From Heliomicrobium modesticaldum Ice1 (GTDB taxonomy: Bacteria > Bacillota > Desulfitobacteriia > Heliobacteriales > Heliobacteriaceae), in the NCBI RefSeq assembly GCF_000019165.1, contig NC_010337.2, positions 62,001 to 126,000 of the forward strand: a DNA stretch of 64,000 nucleotides. The letters are read 5' to 3'. The translations under genes and the position numbers were made by a program. Positions 23,295 to 58,498 of the stretch are shown here, in pieces. Under the pieces are notes generated by a model. That model worked only from the letters and a program-made list of their open reading frames with translations. It was not told the DNA's origin and did no database searches. Position 1 is the stretch's first letter. Each line of letters opens with the position of its first letter.

Positions 23295-23455
23295 AAAACC
23301 CCCTGCGCAGACGCAGGGGGTATACTTCTATCCGCCTCATCTGCCAGGACGAACTGCGTCCTGAAGGAATTGGCACCATGTCGCATCGATTCCCACTATC
23401 TGCGACGGGTTGCCGGGTTTCATCGGGCCCTTTCCCTCCACCTCTCTGGATGAGT
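23295..23455 (-). promoter_or_regulatory. SAM-I (S-box) riboswitch with terminator
   Basis: On the minus strand the leader carries the S-box core: CTCATC (P1), AGAGAGGTGGAGGGA, GGGCCCGATGAAACCCGGCA, then GGTGCCAATTCC and the closing GATGAG that pairs with CTCATC (23336-23341 with 23449-23454). It is followed by a strong terminator, CCCCCTGCG / CGCAGGGGG with a four-base loop (23299-23320) and TTTT. SAM binding would favour the terminator and switch off metY-metX. Confidence 0.93.
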
Positions 23456-23501
23456 GTCTTCAATTTTCGGCCTACCCTGAATAGGTAAGCGCTTGAAGAT
23501 T

Positions 23502-36973: not shown

Positions 36974-37837
36974 CTATTGTTTCAGCGCCGAGCGCATCCA
37001 GGCAATCTCCCGGCGGTAGTCAGCGATCTCCCCGGGCGTCTCCAGGTTGAGGGGCAGACCGACCAGCGCAGGGTGATTCAACAGCGCCGCCAAGGCATCG
37101 CTGCCGATGAGGCCCTGGCCGAGCAGAGCGTGGCGATCCTTATGAGAACCGAGCGGTTGCTGGCTGTCGTTGATGTGCATCGCCTTCAACCGTTCAAGCC
37201 CGATGATCCGATCGAAGGCATCGAGAACAGCGGCAAAATCGCTTTTCACATCGTATCCGGCGCCAAACAGATGGCAGGAATCCAGATTCACCCCGACGAC
37301 CTCCGGGACTTGCAGGCCGTCGATGATGGCTCGCAGCTCCTCAAAGCGTCCGCCCACCTCAGTGCCTGCACCGCTCATCCCTTCCAACAGCACCATAACG
37401 CCCTGGTCAGGCCGGAGAATCTCATTCAAGGCCTGGGTGATCCGTTCGATCCCGGCCTCAATCCCCTGGCCTACATGGCTGCCGGGGTGGACAACCATGT
37501 AGGGGACCTGCGCCGTAGCCATCCGGACGATGTCAGCGGCCAGCGTCATCTTGGCGAAGGCCCAGGTTTCCTCTTTCGGGGCCGCCAAGTTGATCGTGTA
37601 GGGCGCGTGGGCCACCAGGGGGCCGAATCCGTGTTCTTCGCGCAACCATATGGAACGGGCGATGTCATCGGGATCAAGCGCTTTGGCTGCCCCGCCGCGG
37701 GGATTGCGCGTAAAAAACTGGAACGTCGTCGCTCCGATGGAAAGGGCCTCTCGGACGGCCGACTCAAAGCCTTTTGAAATGGATAGATGCGCTCCCAAAT
37801 ACAACAGGTCATCCTTCTTTCTTCCGGCGTATTTCAA
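36974..37837 (-). CDS. nfo: Deoxyribonuclease IV (endonuclease IV)
   Basis: AP endonuclease of base excision repair, a TIM barrel with three zinc ions. 287 residues: LGAHLSISKGFESAVREA at the start, FTRNPRG, VAHAPYTINLA, VVHPGSHVGQG, LLEGMSGAGTEVG, NLDSCHLFGAGYD and MHINDSQQPLGSHKDRH contain the metal-binding histidine, glutamate and aspartate residues of the family. ATG 37837. The adjacent HhH-GPD glycosylase gene and this enzyme could together carry out excision and incision, though a ThiE gene and a repeat region separate them. Confidence 0.93.
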   Translation of the reverse strand: MKYAGRKKDDLLYLGAHLSISKGFESAVREALSIGATTFQFFTRNPRGGAAKALDPDDIARSIWLREEHGFGPLVAHAPYTINLAAPKEETWAFAKMTLAADIVRMATAQVPYMVVHPGSHVGQGIEAGIERITQALNEILRPDQGVMVLLEGMSGAGTEVGGRFEELRAIIDGLQVPEVVGVNLDSCHLFGAGYDVKSDFAAVLDAFDRIIGLERLKAMHINDSQQPLGSHKDRHALLGQGLIGSDALAALLNHPALVGLPLNLETPGEIADYRREIAWMRSALKQ

Positions 37838-38078: not shown

Positions 38079-39548
38079 TTACAGCTGCGCCTTCAGTCGC
38101 CTGGCTGCCTCTTCCACGGCTGCTCGGACAAAGTCAGCAGGGGCGCCAGGCCCATCGCTCGTACCCTCTTCTTGCAGAGCAGTCAGCCTGCATGGCGCAG
38201 CAGCTCCTCTATCTGGATGACCCTTTGCGTCGCGCAACTGAAACAGCGCCGAAATGACGGACACCCCACTGCAACCGGTCTTTCTGATCCCGTTCATCGT
38301 GCCGGCATTCAGGCCGCCGATGGCCACGACAGGAATATCGATGGCATCGCAAATCGCCTGCAGGCCTGCAAAACCCAGCGGCGGAGCGTCTAATCTTTTT
38401 GATGTCGTCGGAAAGACGGGACCCGCCCCGACGTAATCGGCTCCGGCAGCAACGGCAGCCTGCGCCTGGGCAAGATTGCGGACGGTGACACCGATGATCC
38501 CTTTGGGCCACATCTGGCGGGCTATCTCAGGCGGGAGATCTTCGGCTCCCAGGTGAACGCCGTCAGCGCCGGCGGCGATGGCGATATCGATGCGATCATT
38601 GACAATAAACAGTTTCCCCCAGCGGGAAGCCTTTTCCCGCAGGATTTGGGCGCGGCGCAAAAATTCGCCTGTCGGCATATTTTTCTCTCGCAACTGGATG
38701 ATATCACAACCGCCGGCGTAAGCCCCATCGGCCATGGCCGCCAGCGTTGCCGCATCTGACGCCTGCTCCCGGCCGATGATGCCATAAAGGATCCCGGCAT
38801 CTTCCCCGGCTTCGGTGACGCCGGCGACGGCCTTGGCAGCGGGGACGGTGATGGCCCTCGCGGCGGCAACCGGGTCGGCGGCCGTCATGATCGCCGACAT
38901 GATGGCCACCCCGGCGGCGCCTGATCGACCGATCAAAGGCACTTTATCGGCTGTGATCCCGCCGATGGCGATCACCGGGACGGGAGAGCGACGAACGATT
39001 TGGCTCAACACGTCAAGTCCTACTGCTGCCTTGCCCGGCTTGCAAGCCGTTTCAAAGACATTCCCAAAGAGAAAATAGTCCAGAACTGCCCCATCTCCTG
39101 ATTCCGCCAGCGCCTGTGCTTCTTCAGACGAATGGATGGAACGGCCCAACAACATGCCGGGACCGATAATTGAGCGGACTTTGGAAGGCGGCAGGTCTTC
39201 GGCGCCGAGATGAACACCGTCAGCCCCCGCCGCGATGGCGACGGCTGGATTGCCGTTGACGATCAGCGGCACCCCGGCCGGCCGGGTCAGCGCCAGCACA
39301 GACTGCGCCAGGTCCAGCAGTTCCCTGCCGGTCAGGTCTTTTTCCCGCAAGATGACTGCCCCAATACCGCCCTCGATCGCCCCGGCGATGACGTCGAGCA
39401 GGCTTTTGTCGCTGGGGCAGAGCCTGCGATGGGTCACCAGCACCGGCGGCCACGCCAGGGGTGCGGCTTTCCTCAGCGTTCGCTGGAACAGACCGTATCG
39501 ACCTATATTCAAGGCGTATCTGCCTGCCCACAGCTCTTCAAGGCACAT
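38079..39548 (-). CDS. thiE: Tandem TenI-ThiE fusion (thiamine phosphate synthase)
   Basis: 489 residues made of two thiamine-phosphate-synthase-like barrels. The first (about 40-245) has ILREKDLTG, ADGVHLGAEDLP, GRSIHSSEEA and VPVIAIGGITADKV, closer to TenI, lacking the usual QLR start and the N-D-R catalytic triplet (NGNP replaces it). The second (about 285-450) has IIQLREKN, VNDRIDIAIAAGADGVHLG, the phosphate loop GPVFPTTSKR and VVAIGGLNAG, and looks catalytically complete. It joins thiazole phosphate and pyrimidine pyrophosphate. ATG 39548 overlaps the glycosylase stop by 11 bases. The tail is Ala-rich. No other thi gene is adjacent. Confidence 0.9.
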   Translation of the reverse strand: MCLEELWAGRYALNIGRYGLFQRTLRKAAPLAWPPVLVTHRRLCPSDKSLLDVIAGAIEGGIGAVILREKDLTGRELLDLAQSVLALTRPAGVPLIVNGNPAVAIAAGADGVHLGAEDLPPSKVRSIIGPGMLLGRSIHSSEEAQALAESGDGAVLDYFLFGNVFETACKPGKAAVGLDVLSQIVRRSPVPVIAIGGITADKVPLIGRSGAAGVAIMSAIMTAADPVAAARAITVPAAKAVAGVTEAGEDAGILYGIIGREQASDAATLAAMADGAYAGGCDIIQLREKNMPTGEFLRRAQILREKASRWGKLFIVNDRIDIAIAAGADGVHLGAEDLPPEIARQMWPKGIIGVTVRNLAQAQAAVAAGADYVGAGPVFPTTSKRLDAPPLGFAGLQAICDAIDIPVVAIGGLNAGTMNGIRKTGCSGVSVISALFQLRDAKGHPDRGAAAPCRLTALQEEGTSDGPGAPADFVRAAVEEAARRLKAQL

Positions 39549-40233
39549 CGCTGTCGTTCCCCTTTCCTTCCGTCCGATAATAAGTGCAACAGTCGCCCAG
39601 CGGACATTCCGCACAGGACGGCCCTTTGGCCAGACAATAGCGATTGCCCAGGCCATCGATCTGGGCGTGGTATTCCTGAAAGAGGTACAGATCCGGTTCC
39701 AGTCGCTCGGCAAAAAAGGCCTGCATCTCATCGTAACCGACCTTTTCGGAAAAGTAGCCGAGGCGAGAAAAGATGCGCCGCGTATAGGCATCAACTACGA
39801 AAATCGGCTGCTGCGCGCCGTAGAGGATGATGCAGTCGGCCGTCTCTTTGCCGATCCCCTTGATGTCAAGGAGCCGCTTGCGCAACTCCCCCGCCTCCAA
39901 CGACAACAGGTTTTCCAACCTCCCGCCGTATTCGTCGACGATCCGCCGAGCGAAGCCTTGCAACCGCTCTGCCTTTTGATTGTAGTAACGGGTCGAACGT
40001 ACCAGGCGGGCCACCTGTTCCCTCGGTGCTTCCGCGAGGGCGCTGATGTCAAGCAAACCTGCTTGCTTCAGTTGCTCGATAGCCGTCACGACGTTCTTCC
40101 AGGCCACATTTTGGGTCAAGATGGCGCCGACAACCATCTCCAAGGTTGTATCGGCAGGCCACCAGTGCCGAGGACCGAAATGATCAAGCAGGCGGCGGTA
40201 GAGGCGGAGCAGTTCAGCCCGTTGATCGTCCAT
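39538..40233 (-). CDS. HhH-GPD DNA glycosylase, MagIII-like
   Basis: 231 residues with the helix-hairpin-helix glycosylase fold. The motif reads DIKGIGKETADCIILYGAQQ followed by VVDAYTRR; the catalytic aspartate is present, but the endonuclease III lysine position is Glu (KGIGKET versus PGVGRKT), as in 3-methyladenine glycosylase III. It should therefore be a monofunctional glycosylase. The C-terminus keeps a four-cysteine iron-sulfur pattern, CLAKGPSCAECPLGDCC. ATG 40233 has GAAGGTGA upstream. The TenI/ThiE gene overlaps its end, an unusual pairing. Confidence 0.84.
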   Translation of the reverse strand: MDDQRAELLRLYRRLLDHFGPRHWWPADTTLEMVVGAILTQNVAWKNVVTAIEQLKQAGLLDISALAEAPREQVARLVRSTRYYNQKAERLQGFARRIVDEYGGRLENLLSLEAGELRKRLLDIKGIGKETADCIILYGAQQPIFVVDAYTRRIFSRLGYFSEKVGYDEMQAFFAERLEPDLYLFQEYHAQIDGLGNRYCLAKGPSCAECPLGDCCTYYRTEGKGNDSDVP

Positions 40234-40258
40234 AACCGTCACCTTCCCAAAGTATAGT

Positions 40259-40293
40259 AAAAAGCGGGGCAACCCGTCTGGGCACGCCCCGCT
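40259..40293 (-). terminator. Terminator after the LivJ-like gene
   Basis: AGCGGGGC and GCCCCGCT form an 8-bp stem, extended inside by GCCC/GGGT pairs, and followed by five T on the minus strand. Confidence 0.8.
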
Positions 40294-40368
40294 CCGGAAC
40301 ACCATTCCGTCGAAGGAGTCTCTTTGCCAAGGCGTAGCGCCTCAGCGTCTTCACTTGCCTTCCTGCTG

Positions 40369-42468: not shown

Positions 42469-43695
42469 ATGAACAACAAAGATTTATTCCAATTAGCCCT
42501 CGGCTTAACCCCACCATGGTTTGTCTCTGAAGCCCGGTTTAACGCCGAGGCACAAGAACTTCATATTACGATCGACTTCGTACCCGGAAGCTCATTTGCT
42601 TGCCCGGCTTGTGCTGAAGCTGGCTGCAAAGCCCACGATACAAAGGAGAGATCTTGGAGACACCTGAACTTCTTTCAGCACAAGACCTTTATCCATGCAT
42701 CTGTTCCTCGAACGAAATGCGACCGATGCGGGGCAGTCCGTCAGGTAACGGTGCCGTGGAGTCGGCCGGGCAGTGGATTCACCCTGCTCTTTGAGGCCTA
42801 TGTGATGACACTCATGAAAGAAATGCCTGTTAAATCAGTCGCGCGAATTGTTCACGAACATGACTCGCTACTGTGGCGAATCCTCCACCACTATGTTCAT
42901 AAAGCTCGCCGAAAAGAAAACCTGTCGACCGTCGAGAAAATTAGCATCGACGAGACGGCTCGGGCGAAAGGGCATAAGTACATCTCGATGGTTATTGATG
43001 CCGACACCCGGCGAGTGATATTCGCAACAGAGGGAAAAGGCGCTGATGTTCTTCCGAAGTTTAAAGAAGATTTTCAATCCCACGGGGGTAGTGCCGAGAA
43101 TATTACTGATGTTTGCATGGACATGTCCCCGGCCTTTATTTCAGGTGTAGAACGACATCTTCCAGAAGCAACGATAACCTTTGACAAGTTCCATGTGATC
43201 AAGCTAATCAACGAAGCGGTGGACCAAGTTCGACGGGAAGAGCAAAAGACAATGCCGGAATTAAAAGGAACTCGTTATATTTGGCTTAAAAACAAAAAGA
43301 ATTTAACGATGAAGCAAAAAGCGATCATGGAAGATGTGCTGACCCAACGTAACTCAAAGACCGCCAAGGCATATCAGCTTCGACTTACCTTCCAAGAAAT
43401 GTACGAAAAAGATCCTATGGACGCACCGATGTTCTTTAAGAAATGATACTTCTGGGCCACCCATAGTCGGCTAGCGCCTATGAAAGAAGTCGCAAAGACC
43501 ATGAAACGCAATGAGAAGGGCATCCTGCGCCGGTTTGTCTCTAACATCACAAACGGATTACAAGAAGGAATCAATAGCTTGATTCAAGCAGCCAAGCGTA
43601 AAGCGCGCGGGTACCGCTCAGTACGCAACTTCATCTCCATTATATACCTGGTTGCGGGTGGGCTCGATATTTCCGTAGCACCGGCGAACACTTGA
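42469..43695 (+). pseudogene. ISL3-family transposase with in-frame nonsense codon
   Basis: The N-terminal zinc-finger (CPACAEAGCKAHDT, then CDRCGAVRQV) and the DDE-like core (SIDETARAKGHKYISMV, VCMDMSPAFISGV, ITFDKFHVIKL) are those of ISL3 transposases. TGA at 43444-43446 interrupts the frame after MFFKK, and the same frame resumes at once as YFWATHSRLAPMKEVAKTM, giving about 408 codons in total. A TGG codon in a tryptophan-rich WxFWA context would restore the normal protein, so a single G-to-A change is the simplest explanation. The element is probably no longer self-mobile. Confidence 0.88.
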
Positions 43696-43881: not shown

Positions 43882-43956
43882 TGGAGCGGAAGACGAGATT
43901 CGAACTCGCGACCCTCGCCTTGGCAAGGCGATGCTCTACCGCTGAGCTACTTCCGC
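43882..43956 (-). tRNA. tRNA-Gly (GCC)
   Basis: 75 bases including an encoded CCA. Acceptor GCGGAAG pairs with CTTCCGC; the D-arm is TAGCTCAGCGGTAGAGC; the anticodon loop CTTGCCAAG gives GCC; the T-arm is GCGAGTTCGAATCTCGT. Confidence 0.95.
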
Positions 43957-43957
43957 A

Positions 43958-44044
43958 TGGTGCGGTCGAGAGGACTTGAACCTCCACAGCCTTGCGACCA
44001 CTAGAACCTGAATCTAGCGCGTCTGCCAATTCCGCCACGACCGC
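43958..44044 (-). tRNA. tRNA-Leu (CAG)
   Basis: 87 bases with encoded CCA. Acceptor GCGGTCG pairs with CGACCGC; anticodon arm CTAGA-TTCAGGT-TCTAG gives CAG; a long variable arm (GGTCGCAAGGCTGTGG region) is typical for class II leucine tRNAs. One base separates it from tRNA-Gly. Confidence 0.95.
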
Positions 44045-44055
44045 GATTTATTAAT

Positions 44056-44061
44056 ATTATA
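44056..44061 (-). promoter_or_regulatory. Probable -10 box of the tRNA-Leu/tRNA-Gly transcript
   Basis: TATAAT on the minus strand ends 11 bases before the tRNA-Leu 5' end. No good -35 box is visible at the usual distance (TGGATT at 17 bases). The gap 44045-44365 otherwise holds nothing I can support except a 12-bp inverted repeat near the rubrerythrin end. Confidence 0.45.
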
Positions 44062-44293
44062 ATAGAAGATAGCGTTGAAATCCAGTCTAAATTATCTGCT
44101 CACCTACATTTTTTCGGCCCCTCAAGATCAAGGCCACCTGTCCGATGGCGGGAATTTATGATATCACGTTCTCACCTAAGCGTCAACCGGGATATTTTGC
44201 TTCCCCTGTCTCCCAGTCAAAACTGTAACAGGCAAAGCTTATATCGCTAACAGCAAAGAATGTCAAACCCAAGGCGACGGTCGAGGCATAGGC

Positions 44294-44332
44294 GGAAGCC
44301 GGCGCAGCCTTTCAATGGGCGCGCCGGCTTCC
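44294..44332 (-). terminator. Hairpin downstream of rubrerythrin
   Basis: A perfect 12-bp inverted repeat, GGAAGCCGGCGC and its complement, with a 15-base loop, about 35 bases past the rubrerythrin stop. No T-tract follows on that strand. Confidence 0.5.
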
Positions 44333-44365
44333 TATATGACTGTCAGGGGGACTGCTCGGTCGATA

Positions 44366-44929
44366 TCAGTAATTGGGGATGTGAATTTCGTAAAATGCTT
44401 GGGGGTGTTGGCAGGCAGGGCAGACTTCCGGCGCTTCTGTTCCTTTATGTATGTACCCGCAGTTCCGGCACTTCCACTCGACTACGGTATCCCGTTTGAA
44501 CACCCGTCCGTTTTTGATGTTATCCAGCAAAGCGAGGAAACGCTTTTCGTGACGCTCCTCCACTTCAGCGATCTCCTCGAAGAGATCGGCGATGTCACTG
44601 AAACCTTCCTGACGGGCCGTCTCGGCAAAGCGCTGATACAGATCGGCCCACTCACGGTTTTCGCCTGCGGCGGACTGCTCCAGGTGATCCGTCGTCGCCC
44701 CAAGGGCGCTTAAGGCCATATAGAATCGTTTCGCATGCTCTTTCTCGTTTTCGGCAGTTTCAGAGAAGAAACCGGAGATCTGTTGATAACCTTCTCTCGC
44801 GGCGATGGCAGCAAAGAAATCATACTTCGTACGGGCTTGGCATTCTCCGGCAAAAGCAGCCAACAGGTTCTTCTCCGTCTCCGTCCCTTTTAATCCGGGC
44901 ACGTTGGTAATGGTTCTTGTGGGAGACAT
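44366..44929 (-). CDS. Rubrerythrin
   Basis: A 187-residue peroxide-reducing protein of anaerobes. The ferritin-like di-iron domain has [15 protein letters not shown] and [13 protein letters not shown], then [13 protein letters not shown], the two ExxH-type metal sites. The C-terminal rubredoxin-like domain has [12 protein letters not shown] and [17 protein letters not shown]. This order (di-iron then rubredoxin) is the classic form. ATG 44929 follows GGAGGATG. It stands alone between tRNA genes; no peroxiredoxin or PerR gene is seen. Confidence 0.95.
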
Positions 44930-45135
44930 CTTTCATCCTCCTTATCATTTGATATTTTTAGTACAAGTTTATTGTAAAGGAATCTAAGCGACTTGTCAAA
45001 AGATTGCCTAAAAAGCTATTTCTTGAAAATCGCTTCCACAATGCTGTTCAATGGCAGTCGTTGCCTTTTTCTCGGCCTCGTAAGCACCATAGGTAAAAAA
45101 CGGGGCAGGATGTTAAAAAAAGCAACACAAACAAA

Positions 45136-45159
45136 AAACCCCCGCTACAATGGGGGTTT
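45136..45159 (-). terminator. Terminator of tRNA-Thr
   Basis: AAACCCCC and GGGGGTTT, an 8-bp stem, followed by TTT on the minus strand, 11 bases past the tRNA 3' end. Confidence 0.85.
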
Positions 45160-45170
45160 GATCATACTTA

Positions 45171-45246
<76 letters not shown>

Positions 45247-56874: not shown

Positions 56875-57386
56875 GCCTCCTGTACATTAGTGGTTTGATC
56901 CTACAAGGATGCTGCGGGGCGTGGCCGTCCCGCAGCATAGTTTCTAAGATCAAAGCGTTTTCGCTTGTTCTTCATTTCATGTCTGAATAAACGGCTTCAG
57001 ACGATGCGCTTAATTCGACACTGCTCCCCAAGCACGAATGGCAGCGGCGCAAACTATCCGTGGTCAGCGGATATCACAGGAATTCCACCTCCCCGAGAGC
57101 CTCCGGGCCGCACTCTGGGACCTAACCTCGACTATGCAGGAGTATCATTATAGGCCGTTCAGGTCAACGCGATACAGTCCACCACAGACTGTTTTATGGC
57201 CGGGCATTTCTCGCTCGTCGCCTTTGATGCCATCGTTTTTACGGATCGCCTTGACTGATCCGCAGGCAGTCTTCGCGTGCCTGCCAATGTCGCTTTCCGT
57301 TTCCGGCTGAACGGCTAACGTATTTGAGCCGCTGGATATGGACGGCTAAAGCCGGCTTTTTTCAAAGAGCAATGGGGGAATAAAAA

Positions 57387-58022: not shown

Positions 58023-58498
58023 CCGGTCAATATGAGCTGGACTGCCAAATGAAAAATCTAATGAACGCGCATAAAGCCATAAGGCTGGAAGGTGCATATT
58101 CCAACCGAGAGAAATAATTCTTGCGCTGCAGATGCCTTGATAGCACGCAAATTCAGCTACTCCAACCTCTCAATAGATTTTTTCATGTGTCAGCCCTCCC
58201 GATGCTTTTAACAGTGCCAAGATTCACATGGGTGTCGTATTTTGCCGAAAATTATCCGCCTTGGCAAACAAAAAACCCGCCGCTAAAAAGGGCAGGTTTT
58301 ATTACACAGTCTTTGCGGCAACCAGGCTGTCATAGCGCTTTAAGCACCTTAGACCCTATGGCTTTGCGTCCCGGCCTTTAGGCAGGTTTGCCCTTGTCAC
58401 GGATATTATGTTGATGTTAACGAAGAAGTTCCAGCTTATAGGTGAGCCTGGACCGCTTGGAACAAAAGCATTTCTTTTAGAAAAAGGCGGAGATAATG

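Follow-up and report, generated by a model that had tools for sequence, protein, structure and literature searches.

A TenI-type barrel fused to a predicted thiamine phosphate synthase in Heliomicrobium modesticaldum Ice1 and its close relatives

TenI is a thiazole tautomerase, which in B. subtilis acts on the carboxythiazole phosphate that ThiG produces, one step before ThiE, and TenA is the thiaminase II or aminopyrimidine hydrolase. In the primary paper on TenI, His122 is reportedly described as the acid/base residue of the B. subtilis enzyme. For ThiE, the thiamine phosphate synthase, which couples HMP-PP to a thiazole phosphate, a natural fusion is represented by THI6 of Candida glabrata (PDB 3nl2 series), which combines ThiE with hydroxyethylthiazole kinase. 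According to a passage in one published account, TenI turns the ThiG product into a tautomer that ThiE uses more readily (PMC6505512), and a passage in another states that tenI is needed only in certain organisms (PMC5473766). Within the open-licence literature, no paper on a TenI-ThiE fusion was recognised from its title or the opening of its abstract.

Such a fusion is encoded by H. modesticaldum on the minus strand at 38079..39548 of the window, by which we mean the whole 64-kb stretch of DNA that was analysed. The gene was delimited from its open reading frame, its two PF02581 domains and its recurrence in relatives; it encodes 489 aa from an ATG at 39548 down to 38079, and in the ORF list the open frame extends to 39794. 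A profile search of the whole genome with PF02581 (TMP-TENI) gave two stop-free matches within this ORF (E 9.4e-55 and 1.6e-54), which cover positions 1-180 and 3-180 of the 180 in the profile, and at E <= 0.001 no match besides these two barrels was found in the single contig of 3,075,407 bases. Both halves thereby belong to the TMP-TENI superfamily, with 185.5 and 184.7 bits against a curated PF02581 cut-off of 27 bits, and the best NCBIfam and PDB matches of the fused protein are thiamine phosphate synthases and TenI. The first barrel (N barrel), assigned as TenI-type from its residues and from trees, comprises residues 36-233 (38850..39443, minus strand) and is without the ThiE residues Gln57 and Asp93. 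It is followed by a linker at residues 234-253 (38790..38849, minus strand), which is weakly conserved as judged by dN/dS, identity and pLDDT, and by the ThiE barrel (C barrel) at residues 254-442 (38223..38789, minus strand), identified by residues and family models and carrying the QLREK, NDR, GAED and PTTSK motifs. The order put forward in the initial annotation, a TenI-type barrel and then ThiE in one gene, is thus borne out by the two PF02581 barrels and by their placement in the trees.

Upstream of the fusion lies the gene of an HhH-GPD DNA glycosylase (39538..40305, minus strand) and downstream a conserved neighbour, the endonuclease IV gene nfo (36974..37837, minus strand), both assigned from their ORFs and family matches and the latter also from relatives. 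The fused gene had been said to overlap the glycosylase gene, and it does so by 11 nt between the glycosylase stop and the ATG at 39548. All the fusion starts behind these lengths, that of H. modesticaldum included, are putative. Of the relatives, G004 has an overlap of 11 nt, G001 and G002 have 44 nt from a TTG start, and G003 has 38 nt if its ATG is the one at L025:3542 and no overlap if it is the one at L025:3614. Because its length varies in this manner the overlap looks incidental, and a dedicated role for it was rejected. At the Rfam gathering threshold no TPP riboswitch was detected in the window; the Rfam matches on its minus strand included a pemK RNA (57074-57151), a c-di-GMP-I riboswitch (58314-58402) and a SAM riboswitch (23334-23456). 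Elsewhere in the window, an ORF at 42469-43446 resembles, by eye, an ISL3-type transposase, with three tRNA genes close by (43885 to 45246).

Both barrels were found within one open frame in five of the nine genomes of the order and, in a class survey that scored nearly all candidates, in 5/82 genomes of the class. The phylum survey scored at most four candidates per genome and sorted matches by score, with two-half matches on top; here the arrangement was present in two of 398 sampled genomes among the matches listed, and in G007, G126 and G283 a match across both halves was broken by stops. All carriers of the fusion belong to two genera of the family of H. modesticaldum. Another 78 ORFs carrying a TMP-TENI domain all proved to have no second one, a count that excludes long single-match frames listed without a locus, and one pattern scan of other phyla, made in a collection of species genomes and reaching close relatives only, gave no fusion among the matches listed. 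Two archaeal matches (L023 and L024) were rejected as fusions after ORF inspection had revealed single-domain proteins, and a TGA counted within the G001 and G002 matches of the class survey sits just upstream of the ORF start. The proposed search for the same fusion elsewhere therefore located it in five genomes of two genera, and since these share the open frame, the assembly or frameshift error that had been named as an alternative is excluded in practice. This is a real, conserved and lineage-restricted fusion of two related proteins from one pathway.

Codon comparisons indicate that the first barrel is not decaying. Between H. modesticaldum (G000) and G004, dN/dS is about 0.25 for the N domain, 0.18 for the C domain and 0.5 for the linker (22 codons), and between G000 and G003 it is about 0.21 and 0.12 for the N and C domains, with dS near 1; the linker identity of the latter pair is 27% over 22 codons. 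The N domain is under purifying selection and slightly less constrained than the C domain.

Two trees of TMP-TENI domains were examined, namely tree A, which includes 19 other TenI-type rows together with the heliobacterial N-type rows, and a tree of 91 rows. The N-type rows and the C-type rows form one group each, with supports of 99/97 and 100/100 in tree A and 100/97 and 100/99 in the 91-row tree. The N half is placed with TenI-type proteins, including B. subtilis TenI, at 98/88 and 96/86 in tree A and at 100/95, 99/92 and 92/79 in the 91-row tree, where the starred branch (100/95) separates B. subtilis TenI and all seven N-type rows from all seven C-type rows and the ThiE rows. B. subtilis TenI itself is on a long branch, its grouping with the N halves being supported at 96/86 and 92/79, respectively. 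When the 14 N and C rows were forced into one clade, the free trees scored 34 and 26 log units better than the joint-clade trees, while AU tests gave no rejection (p 0.068 and 0.105). Internal duplication is accordingly disfavoured by the trees, though the AU tests do not reject it.

The two genes may have been joined once or twice. Support for a grouping of the five fused N halves is 94/63 (tree A) and 98/85 (91-row tree), and a five-gene tree sets the five fused genomes apart by a branch with a support of only 54/35. The C halves from genus g2, by contrast, form a group with genus g4's unfused ThiE (98/84 in tree A, 96/57 in the 91-row tree), so that fusion may have happened a second time or the gene may have been split in g4. 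In G006 and G007, which represent one genus of the family, the pair exists as separate adjoining genes in the same order, with the same nfo and GNAT genes next to them, which fits either a fusion of neighbours or the splitting, in that genus, of a fused gene. G126, only distantly related within the phylum, has the order thiG-thiH-tenI-thiE-thiD, in which both genes share a single stretch of thiamine genes, and of the 20 regions retrieved for N-half or two-half matches 12 contain thiG.

The residues of the two barrels were compared in B. subtilis ThiE numbering, the ThiE residues concerned being catalytic and Asp93 among them metal-binding. According to the alignment, the C barrel keeps the equivalents of Gln57, Arg59, Lys61, Asn92, Asp93, Asp112, Thr156 and Lys159, and the Ser130 position is occupied by Thr in 7/7 C-type rows as opposed to 2/61 ThiE rows. 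The N barrel keeps the equivalents of Arg59, Lys61, Asn92, Asp112, Ser130, Thr156 and Lys159 and has Ile at Gln57 and Gly at Asp93 in all five fusions. The catalytic NDR triplet had been noted as lacking in the first barrel and complete in the second, and the alignment agrees: VNGN at residues 97-100 (N98-G99-N100, at 39249..39257 of the minus strand, takes the place of the ThiE NDR/NDD) stands against VNDR at residues 316-319 (N317-D318-R319, at 38592..38600 of the minus strand). Since Gln57 and Asp93 are present in 61/61 ThiE rows and 7/7 C-type rows, thiamine phosphate synthase activity is not to be expected of the N barrel, and the predicted inactivity of this half in that reaction is supported. 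Loss of NDR does not serve as a mark of TenI, with Asp93 still present in eight TenI-type rows that have His122.

At the position of B. subtilis TenI His122 (alignment with PDB 1yad) the N barrel has Asn163 (39060..39062, minus strand). Asn occupies this position in 7/7 heliobacterial N-type rows, comprising the five fusions and the unfused homologues of G006 and G007, and the 19 other TenI-type rows of tree A have His (13), Ser (3), Gln (1), Pro (1) and Asn (1). It is because of this replacement of the acid/base residue that we call the N half TenI-type and not thiazole tautomerase TenI. The residues His139, Gly172 and Met217 are shared by 7/7 N-type rows and 14/14 TenI-type rows, the latter picked for having His122, and occur in 0/7 C-type rows; among the 61 ThiE rows, His139 is found in 12 and Met217 in none. 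Invariant in 7/7 N-type rows are His113, Ser137, His139, Thr167, Lys170 and Gly196-Gly197. The description of the first barrel as an 'aminase-like TenI' seemingly mixes TenI, the tautomerase, with TenA, the thiaminase II. A reference title seen in reference lists (PMC5899164 / PMC11117688) likewise gives thiaminase II for TenA, not TenI.

Family models proved uninformative as an arbiter between TenI and ThiE. Both halves pass the ThiE model TIGR00693 (cut-off 145.1 bits; C half 175.9, N half 174), and neither passes PRK07695, the NCBIfam TenI equivalog (cut-off 251 bits; N half 128.3), below which four other TenI-type proteins fall as well (101.3, 130.5, 167.3 and 153.5 bits). The N half is not filed as ThiE despite its TIGR00693 score, because Gln57 and the metal-binding Asp93 are absent. 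TIGR00693 also accepts three of the four other TenI-type proteins scanned, and automatic naming of TenI-type proteins as ThiE may be common. An AlphaFold2 model built from a 5-row alignment contains two barrels (mean pLDDT 74.5, pTM 0.48), in which residues 1-32, 242-250 and 437-468 are modelled with low confidence and the placement of the barrels relative to each other is untrustworthy; its top Foldseek match is THI6. In structure comparisons the N barrel has a best Z of 29.6 to ThiE chains versus 23.7 to TenI chains, from alignments mainly of residues 30-244, and such barrel Z-scores do not separate functions.

The remaining thiamine genes of H. modesticaldum are organised as thiS-thiG-thiH behind a TPP riboswitch, thiS being identified by eye from its position and Gly-Gly end, and as thiC-thiL-thiD at another TPP riboswitch site. 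The fusion is not beside thiG, which is about 1.93 Mb away on the contig. The counterpart of the thiC operon in G001-G004 reads thiC-thiM-thiE-thiL, with thiD next in G001, G002 and G004, and that of H. modesticaldum is without thiM and the second thiE, having about 100 bases between thiC and thiL (L059:6409-6512). As ThiM and the second ThiE are missing from this operon, the C half looks like the genome's only ThiE found and is predicted to be a working thiamine phosphate synthase. ThiM scored above the family cut-off in six of the nine genomes of the order and is absent from G000, G006 and G007, the three genomes where PF02581 matches nothing but the fusion or pair. In both G006 and G007 the unfused ThiE is the sole ThiE-type protein found; these proteins (L029:5803-6447 and L030:6067-6750) have Pro for Thr156 and Ala for Ser206. 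The second ThiE of G001-G004 adjoins ThiM, and we infer that in these relatives the fused ThiE may serve de novo thiazole and the ThiM-side ThiE salvage. In G005 and G008 thiG is present with no TenI-type row, and G005, which is without the TenI-type/ThiE pair, has a ThiE-ThiL fusion of 615 aa (L031:4986-6833).

On balance we consider it rather probable that the TenI-type N domain binds the thiazole precursor next to the ThiE that uses it, and that the gene arose by fusion of neighbours. ThiG would make carboxythiazole phosphate, the N barrel would bind this compound and hold it near the tied ThiE for a putative hand-over, and the C barrel would couple HMP-PP to thiazole phosphate; the two barrels would represent a fusion of thiamine-synthesis genes that adjoin elsewhere. 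Retention of most pocket residues, together with purifying selection, points to carboxythiazole phosphate as the candidate ligand. Also in favour of the reading are the placement of both halves in the trees, the residues that the N halves share with TenI-type rows, the adjoining genes of G006, G007 and G126, the frequency of thiG in the regions retrieved, the position of the C barrel as the only ThiE found in a genome with thiS-thiG-thiH, and the published description of TenI. Counted against it are the PRK07695 failure and the passing of TIGR00693 by the N half, the structural Z-scores, the AU tests, the long branch of B. subtilis TenI with its lower support in the 91-row tree, the loss of His122, the distance from thiG, the lack of a TPP riboswitch in the window, the published statement that only certain organisms need tenI, and the presence of thiG with no TenI-type row in G005 and G008. 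Whether the bound compound would also be tautomerised divides the reading into two sub-cases, and the replacement of His122 by Asn leaves the chance that the N barrel is still a thiazole tautomerase at only about even. A tautomerase active without His122 would use His139 or the substrate phosphate as acid/base and make the fusion a two-step bifunctional enzyme; this quite possible outcome, which we place slightly below an even chance, draws on the residues invariant in all seven N-type rows and on the selection acting on the N domain, and has against it the heliobacterial Asn at the reported acid/base position, where most other TenI-type rows have His. The same loss makes a non-catalytic role possible, the scaffold suggested in the initial annotation being one conceivable form of it; the N barrel would then be a pseudoenzyme that serves the fused ThiE through binding, stabilisation or allostery. 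Most of its pocket is retained without ThiE Gln57 and Asp93 or TenI His122, and G006 and G007, whose genes are unfused, likewise have Asn at the His122 position, but the Ser, Gln, Pro and Asn of other TenI-type rows suggest that this His is possibly dispensable across the branch, and we would put the pseudoenzyme, too, a little short of an even call. A fuller version, offered tentatively and in our opinion rather doubtful, is that of a pseudo-tautomerase which has given up His-based catalysis to become a covalently tied receiver of carboxythiazole phosphate or an allosteric partner, with one ThiE dedicated to de novo thiazole and the relatives' second ThiE beside ThiM for salvage.

The alternatives that dispense with a TenI-type partner fare worse. 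A tandem duplication of one thiE in this lineage, whose first copy then lost its ThiE residues, is left standing by the AU tests and agrees with the passing of the same ThiE model by both halves, but the advantage of the free trees, the splitting of the halves by starred branches and the residues which the N halves have in common with TenI-type rows, and which are missing from the C halves, render it improbable. Hardly credible is thiamine phosphate synthase activity in both barrels, each perhaps with a thiazole substrate of its own; the TIGR00693 score of the N half would allow it, but Gln57 and the metal-binding Asp93 are kept in every ThiE and C-type row and are absent from this half.

Should the preferred reading hold, with the thiazole precursor bound by the N barrel next to ThiE, a natural fusion would link two consecutive steps of thiamine synthesis and would lend support to an action of TenI-type proteins on the ThiE substrate. 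That all heliobacterial copies seen have another residue in place of His122 provides a natural test of the TenI mechanism. For annotation, the name thiamine phosphate synthase, which TIGR00693 gives to both halves, misleads in the case of the first.

Compared with B. subtilis TenI (PDB 1yad, 3qh2), the N half is alike in fold, in its side of the tree, in the GRSxHS and FETxCK-G motifs and in the equivalents of His139, Gly172 and Met217, whereas it differs by Asn at His122, by the ThiE fused onto it, by its score below the NCBIfam TenI cut-off and, in the fused forms, by keeping Asp112. The C half resembles ThiE (PDB 2tps, 1g4t, 1xi3) in its catalytic residues and in a model score above the cut-off, and departs from it in the TenI-type barrel in front and in Thr at Ser130. 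As in THI6, the ThiE/ThiD model PRK09517 and the ThiE-ThiL protein of G005, a ThiE domain is joined to an enzyme of the same pathway; unlike in these three, the partner is a second member of TMP-TENI which, to go by its place in the trees, would act on the ThiE substrate. Proteins in which ThiE is joined to another thiamine enzyme are already known, and the one described here is a modest variation on them.
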